From: Candidatus Borreliella tachyglossi
Lineage (GTDB): Bacteria > Spirochaetota > Spirochaetia > Borreliales > Borreliaceae
DNA length: 64,000 bases
Reading direction: 5' to 3'
NCBI RefSeq assembly: GCF_003076595.1
Contig: NZ_CP025785.1
Location: forward strand, 526,398-590,397
This document shows positions 3,668-13,446 of the stretch, piece after piece; position 1 is the first letter of the stretch; each line of letters starts with the position of its first letter. The translations under genes and the position numbers were made by a program. The notes beneath the pieces were generated by a model. That model saw nothing but the letters and a program-made list of their open reading frames with translations. It was not told the origin of the DNA and made no database searches.

Positions 3668-4993
3668 TTGGCTTTGATTGATTCTAAAATTCAAGATTAT
3701 AAAAGTGTTCTCATTGTTGGCAGACCAAATGTTGGAAAATCTACTTTATTTAATAAAGTTTTAAGCTCACAAAGAAGCATTACTGATAAAACTTACGGAG
3801 TTACGAGAGATTTAGTTAAAGAGATTTGTACTGTAGATTCTTCTAAGTTCTATTTGATTGATACCGGTGGATTTACACTGTTAAAGGATGAACTTAGTCA
3901 GCTTGTAGTTGGAAAGGTTCTAAGCTTGCTTGATAGTATTTCTTTAATTCTGCTTGTTTTGGATGTAAATGAAATGTTATCAGAGGATTATGAGCTTATT
4001 GAAAGGCTAAGAAAATATAGTGGTAAGATAGTTTTGATATTAAATAAAATAGATAGCTATCATAAGGAGTCTTTGGCATGTGAGTTTCAGAAATTAGGTT
4101 TTAAAAAGAGCTTTTTAGTTAGTGCAATTCATGGAAAAGGAGTTAATGCTTTAAGGGTTTTTTTGAAAAACTCAGTTGGTAAATTTGCGAATGATGATGA
4201 AAATATTGACGTTAAAATTGGTATTATAGGAAAACCAAATTCAGGCAAGTCTACTCTTATTAATTTTTTAGCAGGACATGAGGTTTCAATTGTGTCTCAT
4301 ATGGCTGGCACTACAAGAGATTTTATTAAAACAAAGTTTCAAAGAAATAATAAGACATTCGAACTCATTGATACAGCTGGAATAAGACGAAGATCGAGAG
4401 TAAGTGAACTTATTGAACATTATTCTGTAAGCAGGGCCTTAAGAGCAATTGATATGGTGGATATTGTCTTTTTATTAATTGATACTAATGAAGACTTGAC
4501 AGCTCAAGATAAGAAAATTGCTCATTATGCAGCTAAGAAGGGTAAGGGCATTATTATTGTGTTTACCAAATGGGATTTTGTGGAGTCAAAGAGAGCATAT
4601 TTTGAGGCCTTAAAGAAGCGTGTTAAGTTTTTTTTTCCTATTTTAAATTTTGCTCCTATCTTGAAAATATCCGTGCATAAAAAAGTGGGTTTAGATAGTC
4701 TTTTTAGTGAAGCTCTTAAATTAAAGAGGCAACTTGAACTTAAGATAAATACTGCTGATTTGAATAAAATGTTAAGTTTATGGATTAAGGATTATCATTT
4801 GAATGCTTCACATAAAGTGAGGTATATAACTCAGATTAGTGTTAATCCCGTTAAATTTATTTTATTTGCGAATAAAATAAATAATTTCCCAAATTCTTAC
4901 TATAATTATTTAGTAAATAATATTCGTAAAATTGGGTATCAAAATATTCCAATTTTAATAGAGCTCAGAGAGAAGGTAAGAGATTTAAAGTGA
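3668..4993 (+). CDS. der: GTPase Der (EngA), 50S ribosome assembly
   Basis: Double-domain GTPase needed for late assembly of the large ribosomal subunit. First G domain: GRPNVGKSTLFN, YGVTRD, DTGG, NKID. Second G domain: GKPNSGKSTLINF, AGTTRDF, DTAG, TKWD. A KH-like domain fills the C-terminal 110 residues. Length (441) is standard. The start is TTG at 3668, seven bases after a good ribosome-binding site (AAGGAAG, 3654-3660). Its TGA stop overlaps the GTG start of the next gene (GTGA), so they form one unit. Confidence 0.96.
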   Translation: MALIDSKIQDYKSVLIVGRPNVGKSTLFNKVLSSQRSITDKTYGVTRDLVKEICTVDSSKFYLIDTGGFTLLKDELSQLVVGKVLSLLDSISLILLVLDVNEMLSEDYELIERLRKYSGKIVLILNKIDSYHKESLACEFQKLGFKKSFLVSAIHGKGVNALRVFLKNSVGKFANDDENIDVKIGIIGKPNSGKSTLINFLAGHEVSIVSHMAGTTRDFIKTKFQRNNKTFELIDTAGIRRRSRVSELIEHYSVSRALRAIDMVDIVFLLIDTNEDLTAQDKKIAHYAAKKGKGIIIVFTKWDFVESKRAYFEALKKRVKFFFPILNFAPILKISVHKKVGLDSLFSEALKLKRQLELKINTADLNKMLSLWIKDYHLNASHKVRYITQISVNPVKFILFANKINNFPNSYYNYLVNNIRKIGYQNIPILIELREKVRDLK

Positions 4994-6243
4994 GATATGT
5001 ATTTTTATTTTTAATAGTTAGCAATCTAAATCTCTTCGCGTTTGAGAATTTTTTTTATGATTTTACTGTTAGGTCAACTTATTCACAATATTTCGATTCA
5101 AGCAATACTGTTGAGAGAGTAAAACCTCAAAAATATTATATTTCAGATGATTATTATGTTGAAGTGTCAAGTTTAATAGCAAGAGATTATGTTTACTATT
5201 CTTTTTTCAATCGAAAGGATGATATATCTTACATTTTTCCAGGTTCTTATGTGATTAAGGTTGGGAAGAATGGCATTGAACAGATAAAAATATTCTTTAT
5301 AAATAGAGCAGATACTTTTATTAGGATAAAACCAGGCGATATGCATTCTAGTGCTGATTTTTATTTAATAAATACTTTAGTTCATAAAGATGTTAAGTTG
5401 CCTTTTAAAATTCGTGATATTGCTACTGGGTCTTTTCTAGATATTGCTAAATGTGTTGGCAATTTCATTGATTTGAAGTTTTTTATTCCTAAATATTTTG
5501 AGGTTTATGATAATGTTGCAAGTATTGTTGATGAGTTTAGGGCATTTTTTAAGTCTTCATATTCTATCCCTGAGGTTTATGATGGTGCTATGAATGAGGT
5601 GGGTGAGATGGTGTATATTGAAACGGGTATGCCTCAAAGAAAGCCTGAGGGATTTAATTGTTCTGGATTTGGTAAGTGGGTAGCTGATTCAATTTATCAG
5701 ACAATTACTGGAAGACTTTTAAAAATAGAAGACCTTAAAATTAAGCATATTGGAATTAGGGGGAATAGTTTTACTAAGCATTATGAATTTAGTAAAGATC
5801 CATTTTTTGGACTTGATTGGACTCGCAATATTGCATACAAGCTTAAAAATATTAATACTAAGTTAGATTTGTCTAGAGTTAGGGAGACAGATGTTAATAG
5901 TGTTAGGTTCCTTGAATATGTTGACAATCGTGGATATGAGATTGATAATTTAGAATTTGTTTTGTATTACTTGGCATTAAATGAGCCTGGCTATATGTAT
6001 TTTGCCTCTATTAATACAACTATGAATGGATTTCCTGGGAAGGTGTTTCATAGCCATGTTGTTGTATTATTTCCATTTATTGATAGGGAAGCGATTTTTA
6101 GAATATCTGTGATGGAAGTTAACAATGAAACTTCCATTAAATCACTTAAAGATAGGTACCCAAATGCATACGTTCATTTAGTTAGAGTAAAAGTTCCAAA
6201 GAGTATATCTATAGTTCCAATACCTAAGGAAATGAATAATTAG
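4990..6243 (+). CDS. Secreted NlpC/P60-like cysteine protein, function unknown
   Basis: A 417-residue protein with a probable signal peptide (RYVFLFLIVSNLNLFAF) starting at GTG 4990. The middle contains EGFNCSGFGKWVADSIY, with Cys at residue 224. This closely resembles the catalytic Cys motif of NlpC/P60 peptidoglycan endopeptidases (DCSGF plus helix). A later KVFHSHVVVLFPF strand offers His at residues 354 and 356, matching the expected order of Cys then His. The first 200 residues are not recognised. A periplasmic peptidoglycan or amide hydrolase is my inference; the Cys-to-His spacing is longer than in most P60 domains. Confidence 0.6.
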   Translation: MRYVFLFLIVSNLNLFAFENFFYDFTVRSTYSQYFDSSNTVERVKPQKYYISDDYYVEVSSLIARDYVYYSFFNRKDDISYIFPGSYVIKVGKNGIEQIKIFFINRADTFIRIKPGDMHSSADFYLINTLVHKDVKLPFKIRDIATGSFLDIAKCVGNFIDLKFFIPKYFEVYDNVASIVDEFRAFFKSSYSIPEVYDGAMNEVGEMVYIETGMPQRKPEGFNCSGFGKWVADSIYQTITGRLLKIEDLKIKHIGIRGNSFTKHYEFSKDPFFGLDWTRNIAYKLKNINTKLDLSRVRETDVNSVRFLEYVDNRGYEIDNLEFVLYYLALNEPGYMYFASINTTMNGFPGKVFHSHVVVLFPFIDREAIFRISVMEVNNETSIKSLKDRYPNAYVHLVRVKVPKSISIVPIPKEMNN

Positions 6244-6248
6244 CTATT

Positions 6249-6935
6249 ATGATAAAGGCTGTAGTATTTGATCTTGATGGGACTCTTTATCCTGAGATTG
6301 GGATGAATTTATTGATGTTACCTGAATTTTTAAGAAATATTAGGTTTTTCTTGGCTTTTAAAAGGGTGAGAAAGGAAATAAGGGTTTTTCAAAGTGGAAG
6401 GAGTGTTCCTTCTAATAGAGATGAGTTAATGTCTACGCAAGTTGAAATGCTTGCTAATTATTTAGGGTTTAATAAGGATAGATGTGAATTTTTATTAAAT
6501 AAAATATATTATGGGGAGACTTTTGGAAATAAATTTAGAAGTCTAAAACCGTATTCTGGCGTTCATAATTTGATTTATTCTCTTAAATCTAGGGGAGTAA
6601 AATTGGGCGTGATGTCAGATTTTCCGATTGCAACTCGTTTAAGCAATTTGTTGGGTATTAAGGATAGTTTTTGGGATATTCTTTATTCCTCAGAAGATAC
6701 CGGTTACTTAAAGCCAAATAAGATGGCCTTTTTAAGAATTACAGATGAGTTGGGTATCAATCATCAGCATGTTTTGTATGTTGGGAATTCTTATGAATAT
6801 GATATTTTAGGTGCTAACAATGTTTTGATGAGAACAGCTTATTTTTGTAAGAAAAGATTGTTTGGTGATGTGAAGTGTGATTTTATTTTTAGTAATTATA
6901 AAGACTTGCAAGAATATATACTTTTGAATATATAG
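6249..6935 (+). CDS. HAD-superfamily hydrolase
   Basis: Probable soluble phosphatase. HAD motif I is VVFDLDGTLYPE at the N-terminus with the nucleophile Asp, motif II is GVMSDFP, motif III is the Lys of GYLKPNKMAF, and motif IV is YVGNSYEYDILGA. A helical cap lies between motifs I and II (residues 20-105), as in the beta-phosphoglucomutase/phosphoglycolate phosphatase group. Length is 228. It starts 5 bases after the previous stop and belongs to the same run of plus-strand genes. Substrate cannot be told from the sequence. Confidence 0.85.
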   Translation: MIKAVVFDLDGTLYPEIGMNLLMLPEFLRNIRFFLAFKRVRKEIRVFQSGRSVPSNRDELMSTQVEMLANYLGFNKDRCEFLLNKIYYGETFGNKFRSLKPYSGVHNLIYSLKSRGVKLGVMSDFPIATRLSNLLGIKDSFWDILYSSEDTGYLKPNKMAFLRITDELGINHQHVLYVGNSYEYDILGANNVLMRTAYFCKKRLFGDVKCDFIFSNYKDLQEYILLNI

Positions 6936-6954: not shown

Positions 6955-9900
6955 ATGATAGATTTTGTAACCATTTTGGTTAATCTTTTATTAGTTTTTA
7001 TAGTTTTATTGGTCTATCGACAGTATGATAGACGTTCAAGGGCTTTAGATAAGATTAAAAAATTTATTGATATTGCTAAGGACAACCTTGAAGATTTTAT
7101 TGATGAGAAAACAAAAGAAATCAATAATCTTGCTGTTGACATGGAAGCGTATCAACGCTCTAGTATAGAGATTATAAAAAAAATAGATGAAGTCCAGCAG
7201 AAGATTAAAAATAAAAGTAATGATTTTGCAGAAGTCGAGAAGAAAATTTCCTATCACGATTCTATGCTTAAGGAGCTGGATGACATGGCTCTTAAAGTTC
7301 AAGATAATATACAAAGACTTCAAGTTGATGGAAAAATCGTAGATAAGCTTTCAAAAACTTTGAGGGGATTTAATACTCAGATTGATTCTATTGATTCTAG
7401 GTTGAATTCCGTTTTTGAAAAATTTGATAAGACAAATAAGGATAATCTTGAGGCAATTAAGGTTGAGAGCTGGGATAAATTCGATAGTACCATTAAAGAC
7501 CTTAATTTGAGAATGAGTAGTCTAGATAAGGAACTTATGTCTTATCAGGAGTCTGTGGTAAACCTTGAAGAAAGAAAGATGGAAATTTTAGATAAGGGCA
7601 ATGATAAGCTTGAGGGAGAATTTAATAAGTTTCTGTCTAAGGTTGAATCTAGTATTAACAATTACAATAAATCAATAGAAGATTCTTTTGTTATTTACGA
7701 AGATAAATATAAATCAATAGAAAATTCTATTGAGCTTATCGTTGAGAGAGTTAAAACTCAGATTAATGATAAGAAAGATTTTATTTTAACTAGACTGAAT
7801 GAAGAGCTACAGGTAAAATTTGACGAAGTCTTTATGTATGTTGATGAGCGCTCTATTCAAATGAGAGATAAACTCGAAGATAAATTGATATTGATAGACA
7901 ATGAAATCTCTTCTGTAAGTTCTGTTTTTAAGGATAATGCGTATTCTAGGCTTAATTCTATCGAGGAGACTATAAAGCAAGAAATAAGACAGTATGAAGA
8001 ACAAGTTGCAGACATTTTTGATCAATTTAGATTGCAAATTGAATCTAATGTTGGGGATGTTTACAAAGAATATGATAATAAGATAAATCAGTTTAATAAG
8101 GATATAAGAGAGAGAATAGATCTTAGTTTGGAAGATGCTAATTCTAGGATGGAGAGTGTACAAAGTGATGTTAAGACATTGCTTGGCGATCTTGAAAAGG
8201 ATTCTAATAAGATATATGTTGAATTTAAGGAGAAAGTTAAAGATGATATTAACCAGTTTAGCGAGAGTGTGTATTCAAAAATGAATGATATTGGAGGTAA
8301 ACTGGAATCGAGACTTTCAGGTATTAGTGCAGATATTCATGACAAGATTTCCAAGTTAGATAGTGGCTTATATTCAGATCTTAAAGAAATTAATGAGAGG
8401 CTTGTTAATAATTATTCATATTTAGATGGTAGCATTAATTCAAAATATGAAGTTCTTTTAGAATCTTTAAATTTGAAAAGTAGTGAGCTTGAGATTCAAA
8501 TGGATAGCAAGTATAAAAATATTGCAGATAAACTTGAGAGTGATATTGATGATTTTAATATTAAATATAGTGAAAAGTTTAATATCGTCTCTGAGAAGTC
8601 AAATTCGGACTATCAAAAATTTGAAGTTACTAGTCAAAAATTAGAAGAAGAAATAAGGTCTTTAAATGATTTATTGACTCAAGATTTTGAGATTTTAAGG
8701 AGAGATTTTGAATCCAATTTTATACGAATAAGTGATGATGTTAGCAATGAGGTGTCTAATTTAAAGAGTACTTACAGTGGGGATATAGGTGAATTTGTTA
8801 GTCAGATGGAATCTATTAAATTGCAGTACGAACATTGGCAGCAGGAGGCTAAATCTAATTTAGAGAATATTGAATCTCATTTGAATAAAACCAATGAAGA
8901 ATTTTTAATTTTGATTGAGGTTCAAAGGGCAAAAGGAAAAGAGCTTAGTGAAAATATTTTCAAGGAACTCTCAGAGCATATTCAAAAGAAGGCAATGGAT
9001 ATGCACGGTGATTGGAAAGATGAGCTTATTGCTTTAAATAAATCTTTACTTGATATTAAAATTTCAAGTGAAGAATTCCTTTTATCAGCTTCTTCAAAAG
9101 TAGAGTCTTTAGAAAAAGATGTTAGCGAGAGACTTGAATATGTTTCATCAAAAACGGAGGATTTTGAAAATTCAGTATTAGAAAAGTATAAAGAGCTAAG
9201 GGATATCTCGTATACGAAGAGTGATGAGACTTTATCAGGAGTTAAGGAATTTATTGATAATCAAGCAGAGATAATCCATGATAAGGTTATTATGATGCTT
9301 AATGGGCTTAATGAGGGATTTTCTGATAAAGAGGAGTTAATTAAAAATAAAATAGAGGAGTTTGATTATAAGCTTAAGGACTTCAAACTTGAGTGTGAAG
9401 ATGTTTTAAATAATTTTAGGTCAGACCTTGATGGATTTATTGCAACTAGGTTGCAAAAAGTGTCTGAAATTAAGATAGATAATCAGAAGCAGATAGACAA
9501 TTTTCTAAATAAAATATCTGAAGACATTTTAAATAGAAAAGATATTCTGAATAGTGAGGTAGATAATAAACTTAATGATTGGCAAGGAAAATTAAGTGAG
9601 ATAGCAGTTAATGTTGAGAATGTATTATCGTCAGGGAAAGTTGATATGAACTCAATAAATTCTGAAATAGCTTTAAAGGTTAAGGATCTGAAAACTACTG
9701 TTGAGGGACTTGAGAGTTATTATCTTGAGAAAATAGATGAGTTTAGAAATCAAGGGAACATATATTCGGATGAACTTCTGAAAAATATTATGAATCATTT
9801 TGATGCGGATACTAAAGAGCTTGAGGAAAGCTTATCTAAGAAATTTGCTACAGTTTTAGAAAAATCGGAAGAGTTTGTTAAGGAAGTTGATAGCTTGTTG

Positions 9901-12900
9901 CAGGATAAAAGGACAGATATTACTTCATTTCAGGCAAATATTGATGTTACTCTTGATTCTCTTAATGTAAGATTTAATGATGTAAATAAGGAAATTAATG
10001 ATAAATATAATGAGGTAATATCTAATGCTAGAGGATATTCAGAAGCTCTTTCAAATAAATTAGAGAATGAAATAGTATATGAGATTGAAAATATAACTAG
10101 GAGATTGACAGACAAACTAGATATTCTTAGCAAGAATATGGATGAAAATTTAGCTAATTTTAAAGTATCTTTTGATGTATCCAAGTATCAAGTTGAAAAT
10201 TTTGAAATTAAGATTAAAGATCTAGTAGACAAAGAAGAGTTAAGAATTAGTAGATTTTTGGAAGAAATTGAACAGCAGTATAAATTGAGACGAGAAGAGG
10301 CAGTTGATTACAAAAGGATCATAGATAATGATGTTGCTCAACTTAGGGAACGGTTTTTAGAGATAATTAATGAACTTAAGAATAACATTGAAGATAAATC
10401 TGAGTTTTTAAATGATCTTTATAAAGAGAGATTTAAAATTATTGAGAATAATCTTGAGGGAAGATATTCAACATTTTTAATGGAGAGCGAAGATGTTGTT
10501 TCAAAGATTAGAGATGAAATAGATAAGATGGCAACAGATAATGATGAAAATTTGAGGCTAAAAAAGTATGAGATGGATCGTAGTTTTGAGACAATAGAAA
10601 AAAGATCGAAAGAAATTCTAGAATTTGAAGAGGGTTTAAGGGCAAGGATACAAGAGAATAACGATAAAATAAATTATCAATTAGGTATAATTAAATCTGA
10701 TATTGAAAAGGAAATGAAATCTCAATTTGATTCGTATATAATGAAGGCGCATGTTTCAATTGACGAAGAGATTGCAAAATATGAGCATGAAGTTAAGGAA
10801 AAAATATCTTCTCTTATGTTAGTCGAGAAAACTTTTACGGATATAGAAAAGGATTTAAAAGATAAAATTGGCAAATATCATCATGAACTAAACAAAACTC
10901 TTGATTTTCAATATACTGAACTTGAGAGTAAATATAATGAGAAGCAGTTATTAATAGAGAGTAAAATTGATGAGAATGCTAGTTATATTGATGGCGTGAT
11001 TTCAAGCAAATATACTGAACTTGAGAGTAAGTACACCAAAATGCATCTTGATATGGCGAATAGATTAAATTCATGCATTTCTGACTTAAGGGAAGAACTT
11101 ACTAGTTCAAATGAAAGTATGACCAGAACTATTAAGGGGCAATTTGAAAATCTTGGTGAACTTAAATTAAGTTTAAATGGTATTGAAAAAGACGTAATAA
11201 GACTTAAAGAAGATTCTTATCAAAGTGTGTCATCACATCTAAAACTTCTTGAAGAGGATTTTTTTAAAGATTTAAAAAACAGGGATGAGTATTTAAAAAC
11301 TTCTTTGGAAAATTTTATGACCGCAGCAGATCAGAGAATCGATAGTGTAGAAAGGGATATAATTAAGGGCTTGGAAGATAAAGCAACCTTGATGAATAAT
11401 TTTAAGGTTGAAATTGAGCAGGAACTCATACTTAATAAAAAAAATTTTTACTCAGAATTTAGTAAGGAATGTGATATTAGGAAAAGAGACGCAGAGAATA
11501 AGATATCCTCAATAGAGATTAGTGTTGCTAAGCGCATAGACGAATTTATTGAATTTATAGATGATCGTCAAAGTAATGTTGACTTTTGGTTTTTAAAAGT
11601 TAAGGATGACATGAAGGATTGGCAAGAGAGCGCTTATAAAGCATTTGAAGAGAGAGCAAGCATTGCCGAGAGAAGCGTAAAGACAATTGAAAGTGATGTT
11701 TCTGATATTGAGAATAGATTGGAAGTGATTAAAGACAGTGTTGAGCAGAGGACAAAAGAAATTTTTGGTAATTTGTATAATGACATTAGGGAGTTTGAAA
11801 ATAGCTCTTGCCTTAACTTGAAGAGTATCTCAGATGAATTTGAGGGTAGAGCTTTAAAGATTGAGAATTACATGGTTTCTAAGATTGAATCTCTAGATGA
11901 TAAGATGAATTCGCATATTGAAGAGATTGCAACACAGGTGGAGATTAGGTTTTTAAGTCAGCAAAAAGATATTGAAGATAAAATAGTTGAAGCTAATCAG
12001 AAATTAGAAGATGAATTTAGTCTAATAGTTTCTAGACTTGAGACAGAAAAGCAAGAGCTTGTGAGTAGGTTTTTAGATGATAAAGATAGTGTTAAGTCTA
12101 GGGTTGAAGTGATGCAAGATGATGTTTTAAAGATTGCTGATAGAGTTAATGAGTATAGAGTTGATATTGAGAGAACAATTAGGGAAAATTATGAATCTTT
12201 TGCAAGTTCTATGAAGCATACATATGTTTTATTTGAAAATGAGCTTAAGAATAGTTTGGGTTATTCAGAAGAAAAGATCAAGACCATAAAAGATAGTTTT
12301 AAGGTTCAATTGGATAGTATAGAAGCTGAGCTTAAAGGCACATATAAGGCAATGCTTCAAGGTGTTGATGATAATATATCACAGTTTAAGTTGAAGGTAG
12401 CGGATTATGATAGTGAGCTTAATCATTTTGTTGATGAGATTAGGAATAGTTTAATTGTCTACAAAGCTGATTTGAGAGAAGAACTTGAGAGTCGTTATGC
12501 TACCATAAGTGCTCAGATTGAAAATTTTAAGAAGTTTGAGGATGAAATTGTGAGAAATAATGAGCTTCTTAGCGAAGCTTATGCTTTCAAGGATAAATTA
12601 GAAGAGTTATGGCAAACTTTAACGAAGGAAATAAATCTTGTTCAAGGGTATAAAAATGACTTTGAAAATATTAATAGAGAAATTAAATCCATTAAAGATC
12701 AATCATCAGATATTGTTGAGGTATTTAATGATTTAAAAGTGCACCAGACAGATATTAAAGGTGTTAAGGAAGATTTTGAGCAATTCCTTGAATTTTACGG
12801 TTCCTTTAAAGACCGATATAAGAAATTTATAGAATCTTATGATGAGATGCAGATTTACAAAACTAAACTTAAGGAAATAAGGAAAGATCAAAATAATATT

Positions 12901-13446
12901 CTTGATAATTACGATAGGATTAGCAACAAAGAGAGCATATTAAAATCTACAATAGAGTCTGTTGATAAAAATTTTGATTTAATAAGTGAAATAGAGAATA
13001 GAATGCAATTTTTATCTAAAGAGAGCTCTGAATTTCATCAGAGTCTTGGTGAACTGAGAATCATAATAGCAGAGCTATTAGTAAATAAGAATTTATCACA
13101 AGAAGTGCTAAGTAATGCTCAATCCCTTAAAGAAATGCTAGCTGATATTGAGAGTAAGTTAGAACATACTAGAAGTATAAGAGAAAGAGTTGCCAAATCT
13201 GAGACAAGATTAGAAAACTTAAATGTTGCTGCGGAAGAGAGAATAAAAACTCTTGGAATTCTTGTAAAAACAGATTCTAAGTATAAGGATAATGTCGGCC
13301 TTAATAATGAGATAGTTAGAGATTCTGTTCTTAAGCTTATGAGACAGGGTTGGAGTGCTTCAGAGATTTCACGGGCTACTAAATTATCTGTTGGAGAAGT
13401 TGAGCTTATCTTGGAACTTGGAATTAGCAGTAAAAGCGATGATTAA
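6955..13446 (+). CDS. Giant membrane-anchored coiled-coil protein with C-terminal HTH
   Basis: A 2163-residue protein. The first 21 residues form a hydrophobic membrane segment (FVTILVNLLLVFIVLLVY) followed by a basic stop-transfer (RQYDRRSR). Almost everything after that is continuous charged coiled coil (E, K, D, S, I, L rich; no Cys clusters, few Pro). The last 45 residues break the pattern and look like a helix-turn-helix: LMRQGWSASEISRATKLSVG followed by EVELILELG. Similar short HTH tails occur at the end of some membrane-anchored coiled-coil proteins in other bacteria. A 21-base sequence is repeated exactly at 10911 and 11010, showing local coil duplication. The likely role is structural or in cell organisation; no enzyme domain was seen. 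Confidence 0.8.
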   Translation: MIDFVTILVNLLLVFIVLLVYRQYDRRSRALDKIKKFIDIAKDNLEDFIDEKTKEINNLAVDMEAYQRSSIEIIKKIDEVQQKIKNKSNDFAEVEKKISYHDSMLKELDDMALKVQDNIQRLQVDGKIVDKLSKTLRGFNTQIDSIDSRLNSVFEKFDKTNKDNLEAIKVESWDKFDSTIKDLNLRMSSLDKELMSYQESVVNLEERKMEILDKGNDKLEGEFNKFLSKVESSINNYNKSIEDSFVIYEDKYKSIENSIELIVERVKTQINDKKDFILTRLNEELQVKFDEVFMYVDERSIQMRDKLEDKLILIDNEISSVSSVFKDNAYSRLNSIEETIKQEIRQYEEQVADIFDQFRLQIESNVGDVYKEYDNKINQFNKDIRERIDLSLEDANSRMESVQSDVKTLLGDLEKDSNKIYVEFKEKVKDDINQFSESVYSKMNDIGGKLESRLSGISADIHDKISKLDSGLYSDLKEINERLVNNYSYLDGSINSKYEVLLESLNLKSSELEIQMDSKYKNIADKLESDIDDFNIKYSEKFNIVSEKSNSDYQKFEVTSQKLEEEIRSLNDLLTQDFEILRRDFESNFIRISDDVSNEVSNLKSTYSGDIGEFVSQMESIKLQYEHWQQEAKSNLENIESHLNKTNEEFLILIEVQRAKGKELSENIFKELSEHIQKKAMDMHGDWKDELIALNKSLLDIKISSEEFLLSASSKVESLEKDVSERLEYVSSKTEDFENSVLEKYKELRDISYTKSDETLSGVKEFIDNQAEIIHDKVIMMLNGLNEGFSDKEELIKNKIEEFDYKLKDFKLECEDVLNNFRSDLDGFIATRLQKVSEIKIDNQKQIDNFLNKISEDILNRKDILNSEVDNKLNDWQGKLSEIAVNVENVLSSGKVDMNSINSEIALKVKDLKTTVEGLESYYLEKIDEFRNQGNIYSDELLKNIMNHFDADTKELEESLSKKFATVLEKSEEFVKEVDSLLQDKRTDITSFQANIDVTLDSLNVRFNDVNKEINDKYNEVISNARGYSEALSNKLENEIVYEIENITRRLTDKLDILSKNMDENLANFKVSFDVSKYQVENFEIKIKDLVDKEELRISRFLEEIEQQYKLRREEAVDYKRIIDNDVAQLRERFLEIINELKNNIEDKSEFLNDLYKERFKIIENNLEGRYSTFLMESEDVVSKIRDEIDKMATDNDENLRLKKYEMDRSFETIEKRSKEILEFEEGLRARIQENNDKINYQLGIIKSDIEKEMKSQFDSYIMKAHVSIDEEIAKYEHEVKEKISSLMLVEKTFTDIEKDLKDKIGKYHHELNKTLDFQYTELESKYNEKQLLIESKIDENASYIDGVISSKYTELESKYTKMHLDMANRLNSCISDLREELTSSNESMTRTIKGQFENLGELKLSLNGIEKDVIRLKEDSYQSVSSHLKLLEEDFFKDLKNRDEYLKTSLENFMTAADQRIDSVERDIIKGLEDKATLMNNFKVEIEQELILNKKNFYSEFSKECDIRKRDAENKISSIEISVAKRIDEFIEFIDDRQSNVDFWFLKVKDDMKDWQESAYKAFEERASIAERSVKTIESDVSDIENRLEVIKDSVEQRTKEIFGNLYNDIREFENSSCLNLKSISDEFEGRALKIENYMVSKIESLDDKMNSHIEEIATQVEIRFLSQQKDIEDKIVEANQKLEDEFSLIVSRLETEKQELVSRFLDDKDSVKSRVEVMQDDVLKIADRVNEYRVDIERTIRENYESFASSMKHTYVLFENELKNSLGYSEEKIKTIKDSFKVQLDSIEAELKGTYKAMLQGVDDNISQFKLKVADYDSELNHFVDEIRNSLIVYKADLREELESRYATISAQIENFKKFEDEIVRNNELLSEAYAFKDKLEELWQTLTKEINLVQGYKNDFENINREIKSIKDQSSDIVEVFNDLKVHQTDIKGVKEDFEQFLEFYGSFKDRYKKFIESYDEMQIYKTKLKEIRKDQNNILDNYDRISNKESILKSTIESVDKNFDLISEIENRMQFLSKESSEFHQSLGELRIIIAELLVNKNLSQEVLSNAQSLKEMLADIESKLEHTRSIRERVAKSETRLENLNVAAEERIKTLGILVKTDSKYKDNVGLNNEIVRDSVLKLMRQGWSASEISRATKLSVGEVELILELGISSKSDD

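Follow-up and report, generated by a model that had tools for sequence, protein, structure and literature searches.

What could a protein of more than two thousand residues do when one end carries a membrane helix and the other a helix-turn-helix (HTH) fold? The question is raised by an open reading frame (ORF) of Candidatus Borreliella tachyglossi, in a 64,000-nt stretch of contig NZ_CP025785.1 (positions 526,398–590,397), hereafter called the window. The ORF begins with ATG, occupies 6955–13446 on the forward strand, to which all window coordinates below refer, and encodes 2163 amino acids, exactly as a first-pass annotation made from the bare sequence had drawn it. Its product is a member of the NCBIfam family SpiroCoCo (NF047514 / NF047515): SpiroCoCo_N matches residues 8–230 (6976–7644) with 221.9 bits against a cut-off of 75, and SpiroCoCo_C matches residues 1843–2153 with 275.5 bits against a cut-off of 125. 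The end domains, their order and the architecture are those of the family, and no difference from it was seen. The family is thus already named, without an assigned function in the sources consulted, and a search of the available literature on SpiroCoCo, BB0512 (the Lyme counterpart) and LA_3659 returned no relevant paper.

With about an even chance of being right, we propose that SpiroCoCo is a giant, rod-extended relative of the FipA-type flagellar membrane proteins and acts from the membrane to organise where flagella are placed or how they are assembled. How spirochetes set the site and number of their periplasmic flagella is an open question, for which SpiroCoCo offers a concrete and testable candidate. 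If the proposal is true, one of the largest conserved uncharacterised proteins in spirochetes gains a function. New in this study are the link of the tail to FlhF-recruiting flagellar proteins, a flagellar paralogue, the joint absence of the protein with flagella, and a rod of period 3.64.

The C-terminal tail and its flagellar relatives

The protein ends in a three-helix HTH-fold tail of the DUF6115/DUF2802 type (residues 2119–2157; 13309–13425), which is by sequence closest to the modules of small membrane proteins encoded at flagellar loci. DUF6115 (PF19610, cut-off 27 bits) matches the tail alone with 29.5 bits and reaches 33.0 bits in the genome search; it is not listed when the whole 2163-residue protein is scanned. 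DUF2802 scores 23.1 bits for the tail and 20.8 for the whole protein, both below the Pfam cut-off of 33.5. At E ≤ 0.1, DUF6115 matches 60 and DUF2802 38 of 74 SpiroCoCo tails.

FipA is a 163-residue DUF2802 membrane protein whose gene lies downstream of flhA-flhF-flhG in polar flagellates, and it binds FlhF, the GTPase that places the flagellum (PMC11620751). FipA proteins all carry G110, E126 and L129; the G110A and L129A substitutions each abolish the interaction with FlhF, whereas E126, invariant as it is, is dispensable for binding (PMC11620751). The equivalents in the SpiroCoCo tail are Gly2132 (13348–13350), Glu2148 (13396–13398) and Leu2151 (13405–13407). Their spacing of 0/+16/+19 is identical to that in FipA, and both sets of residues fall on positions 43, 59 and 62 of the DUF2802 profile in the Pfam alignment. 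Among the 74 aligned tails, the glycine is kept in 63, the glutamate in 50 and the leucine in 49, and a tryptophan next to the glycine (70/74) and an isoleucine at +6 (73/74) are kept as well. Like FipA of Vibrio, Pseudomonas and Shewanella, SpiroCoCo combines an N-terminal membrane helix, a coil, an HTH-like C-terminal module and the G/E/L spacing, and it co-occurs with FlhF. Unlike FipA, it has 2163 rather than 163 residues, its DUF2802 score is below cut-off, its binding to FlhF is only predicted, and its gene does not adjoin flhF or flhG.

The same genome also encodes a 164-residue protein (C1:286425 onward, minus strand) composed of a membrane helix, a coil and a SpiroCoCo-like tail. Its gene comes second after fapA, with a 103-residue gene in between, and flhA and flhF lie about 5 kb upstream of it. 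The protein matches DUF6115 above cut-off with 28.7 bits and carries G137, E153 and L156. When ten such small proteins were aligned, G137, I143 and E153 were invariant, and DUF6115 matched all ten. Seven of the ten genomes carry the gene 5–7 kb downstream of flhA; in an eighth it follows flhF at a distance of about 5 kb, and in the two Brachyspira the small DUF6115 gene is not near flhF. Small DUF6115 candidates in two further genomes (G212 and G004) were dropped, as their sequences look like those of a regulator of the LuxR type and of a sigma factor. Aligned with the small-protein family, the profile of the SpiroCoCo tail gave a match over 45 columns (hhalign, 98.4%, E 7.9e-15). Given this homology, SpiroCoCo appears to be a giant paralogue of a flagellar protein, with the layout of the 164-residue protein and a homologous tail. 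The small protein differs in being short and, in most genomes checked, in being encoded near flhA.

In the mechanism that we propose, the N-terminal helix would anchor SpiroCoCo in the inner membrane. From there the helical rod would extend through the cytosol or follow the membrane, probably as an oligomeric and near-straight bundle. The tail would dock a protein partner, most likely the signal recognition particle-type GTPase FlhF, rather than read DNA. By these means SpiroCoCo may help to determine the position or number of the periplasmic flagellar motors that stand in rows near the cell ends, or to license them. Such a role would account for the terminal HTH without invoking DNA. The polar landmarks HubP and TipN are likewise large cytosolic proteins with a membrane anchor, and they direct where a flagellum is placed; the likeness is in kind of protein only, and no sequence relation is claimed.

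Co-occurrence with flagella

SpiroCoCo was found at E ≤ 2e-17 in 225 of 247 Spirochaetota genomes, in 163 of them above the strict cut-off. Eleven further genomes with weak matches were left uncounted, since weak matches also turn up in control genomes that lack the family, probably through their coils; counting every match at E ≤ 0.001 would overstate the presence of the family. FlhA was found in 236 of the Spirochaetota genomes. FlhF matches occur in all flagellated genomes tested, many of them below the strict cut-off, and two flagellated draft genomes (G158 and G092) have no convincing SpiroCoCo copy. Within the same class, one family (f11) has FlhA in none of its 61 genomes and SpiroCoCo above cut-off in none of the 61, and no weak match there reaches the tail. 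From its position and its missing flagella, this family is presumably Sphaerochaetaceae, the round spirochetes.

Several points weigh against a flagellar role. The joint absence of SpiroCoCo and FlhA in this family probably reflects a single loss event, and its members may have lost helical shape along with flagella; the absence is for these reasons supporting and not decisive. A genome of this type that lacks FlhA (G224) contains a 397-residue frame (G224:C34:22558-23355) that is FlhF-like at 128 bits, below cut-off, so that the FlhA-less family may retain an FlhF-like GTPase. SpiroCoCo lies outside the flagellar operon, at C1:533–540 kb, with flhA and flhF at C1:291–294 kb. Glu2148 and Leu2151 are kept in about two thirds of the tails, more distant members carrying other residues, and the predicted docking to FlhF depends on homology to FipA by way of a DUF2802 score (23.1 against 33.5 bits) that falls short of its cut-off. 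The literature search found no experiment on the SpiroCoCo protein.

The rod and the competing explanations

From the N-terminus, SpiroCoCo consists of a membrane helix, a helical rod of about 2,070 residues, a linker and the three-helix HTH fold. Residues 4–21 (6964–7017) form the single hydrophobic segment and are followed by RQYDRRSR, in which R22 and D25 do not vary among 19 aligned SpiroCoCo N-termini; the membrane anchor described by the first-pass annotation is supported. Since positive residues follow the helix, the positive-inside rule places everything after it in the cytosol, as had also been supposed. A conserved C-terminal helix (residues 1843–2102; 12481–13260) with a SETRLE motif lies within SpiroCoCo_C, and a flexible linker (residues 2103–2118; 13261–13308) separates it from the tail. 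For the last 330 residues, AlphaFold2 with 66 sequences predicts a continuous helix of 268 residues, a disordered linker, most of it with a predicted local distance difference test score (pLDDT) below 50, and three short helices.

The protein had been described as a coiled coil of roughly 2,100 residues. It is helical throughout, with no proline anywhere, but its central rod departs from the classical heptad coil. Along the length-variable part, about residues 361–1800 (8035–12354), hydrophobic residues recur with a period of 3.64 whose phase drifts slowly; the peak stands at 83–85 times the variance, against a maximum of 8.7 among 100 shuffles. A heptad period of 3.5 is not followed along the rod, where values of 3.64–3.68 prevail over residues 31–1920, and only the C-terminal helical stretch of about 250 residues is heptad-like (period 3.46). 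Most of 21 relatives compared across the phylum peak at 3.63–3.65, whereas most decoy coiled coils, mainly receptor-like proteins, peak at 3.49–3.52. One frame among the decoys (L096, genome G029) differs from the others in peaking at 3.637 and is possibly a second SpiroCoCo-like rod. As 3.64 is close to the period of an undistorted alpha-helix, it suggests that the bundle is near-straight and not wound into a left-handed coil. Fully extended, with a rise of 0.15 nm per residue, residues 361–1800 would measure about 216 nm and the whole helical part about 310 nm. Glutamate, lysine, leucine, serine, isoleucine and aspartate are abundant, and aspartate and glutamate make up 21.5% of the protein. 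A Pfam apolipoprotein match (2e-35) is read as a near-11/3 amphipathic period and not as homology, and the strong acidity of the protein (−6.9 charges per 100 residues) disfavours a lipid-coating helix.

Such a rod could instead be cytoskeletal, its oligomers stiffening or curving the cell along the inner membrane while the tail docks another membrane or cytoskeletal partner, so that loss of the protein would track helical shape and not flagella. The great length and the unusually coherent stripe retained phylum-wide agree with this, and other long bacterial coiled-coil proteins, Scc and crescentin, form filaments (as cited in PMC2680258). In the FlhA-less family shape and flagella may have gone together, so that its loss of SpiroCoCo does not tell the two apart. 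However, the tail is related specifically to flagellar-locus proteins, and a shape-giving rod appears to us unlikely, if worth keeping in mind.

Alternatively, SpiroCoCo may license the flagellar export apparatus or basal-body maturation in the manner of SwrB, instead of acting through FlhF-based positioning. SwrB of Bacillus subtilis, which crosses the membrane once, activates flagellar export through FliP (PMC4526659), and DUF6115, the best-matching family of the tail, also has matches in B. subtilis and Thermotoga maritima. SwrB resembles SpiroCoCo as a single-pass membrane protein, one that flagellar assembly requires, and it may belong to the same DUF6115 family; it differs in being short and in acting on flagellar export. 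That the B. subtilis match is SwrB is nevertheless only presumed, and the positions through which FipA binds FlhF are kept in SpiroCoCo. We regard an activity of this sort as rather improbable.

The length ruler of the first-pass annotation survives in a different form: not the cell but the motor row may be measured, by a rod that varies in length between two conserved ends. SpiroCoCo lengths run from about 490 to 9,127 residues. The shortest open frame, of 492 residues (L093, family f8), is complete with membrane helix and tail; minimal forms of this kind occur in two small f8 genomes that retain FlhA (L093 in G149, L094 in G237). Many frames have 713–1,100 residues, those of Borrelia about 2,170–2,520, and the range ends with 7,000–9,127 in Brachyspira, which suggests that a flagellar protein layout of about 160 residues can be stretched more than fifty-fold. 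In genomes of the size of those of Treponema pallidum and T. denticola the protein has about 1.0–1.1 thousand residues, and these two species bear few flagella. Within Brachyspira, the lengths are 7,877 residues in B. intermedia, 7,844 in B. hyodysenteriae, 7,872 in B. suanatina, 7,673 in B. murdochii, 7,139 in B. hampsonii and 7,770 in B. innocens. A length of 4,791 for B. pilosicoli P43/6/78 was rejected: a frameshift splits the gene (G136:C1, L143/L144) into 809 and 4,791 residues, hiding the first part of a true span of about 5,580. In B. intermedia (L042), too, the start of SpiroCoCo lies outside the long frame, and the break is close to a poly-A run. Tandem pairs with very different rods occur in G015 (L052; 3,005 and 1,371 residues), G001 (L058/L059) and G027.

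Flagella number 4–6 per end in B. pilosicoli and 7–14 in B. hyodysenteriae (PMC2897892), and 11–13 per end in B. murdochii (PMC3035287). Per cell, B. intermedia has 24–28 and B. suanatina 14–16, inserted 'on a line' below the tip (PMC4603578). Most of the other Brachyspira species, with 7.1–7.9 thousand residues, are thus reported to bear more flagella than B. pilosicoli. These figures loosely follow the direction expected if SpiroCoCo were a ruler or scaffold of the motor row, attached by its ends to the membrane and to the FlhF machinery, with the rod length setting the distance of the motors from the pole or the length of the row. The sample is nevertheless small and consists of related species, B. 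suanatina fits poorly with its 7,872 residues and 14–16 flagella per cell, and the corrected span of B. pilosicoli weakens the correlation. A physical ruler is accordingly a doubtful extension of the flagellar proposal.

The HTH fold of the tail, claimed by the first-pass annotation, is confirmed by structure prediction: for the tail alone (AlphaFold2, 74 sequences) the same three helices were obtained, with pLDDT 88–95 over the helices. Its PDB matches are generic HTH domains with a best E of 0.13, the nearest solved structures being mostly DNA-binding ones, and generic HTH families of Pfam match weakly only. Helix 3, which would be the DNA-reading helix, has a net charge of −3 here and a mean of −1.8 among 74 relatives, of which 8% are positive; neither a basic recognition helix nor a confident match to a regulator family was found in the tail. 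Because helix 3 is acidic and the closest sequence families are the flagellar DUF6115/DUF2802 modules with the FlhF-binding residues of FipA kept, DNA reading is rejected as the leading explanation for the tail. The membrane–nucleoid tether envisaged earlier, with the HTH bound to DNA and the rod spanning the distance to the membrane, is then very improbable, despite the fold, its DNA-binding structural neighbours and Scc of Leptospira, a spirochetal coiled-coil protein reported as DNA-binding (PMC2680258).

Gene neighbourhood

The gene order around SpiroCoCo is rny-like, TIGR00282 phosphoesterase, der-like, HAD hydrolase, SpiroCoCo, pheS-/pheT-like, trxB-like, dnaJ and dnaK. The HAD-type hydrolase (6249–6935) lies directly upstream of SpiroCoCo, and the two form a conserved pair, kept in most class members examined; it is directly 5′ of SpiroCoCo at loci L034, L035, L036 and L038–L041, and two genes off at L037. 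Matches of the SpiroCoCo ORF to SMC, Rad50 and ZorA are far below cut-off and were set aside as common coil composition. Between der and the HAD hydrolase lies a 417-residue protein (4990–6243) with a likely signal peptide. It matched no NCBIfam family, and a homologue occupies the equivalent place in a related genus (L041).

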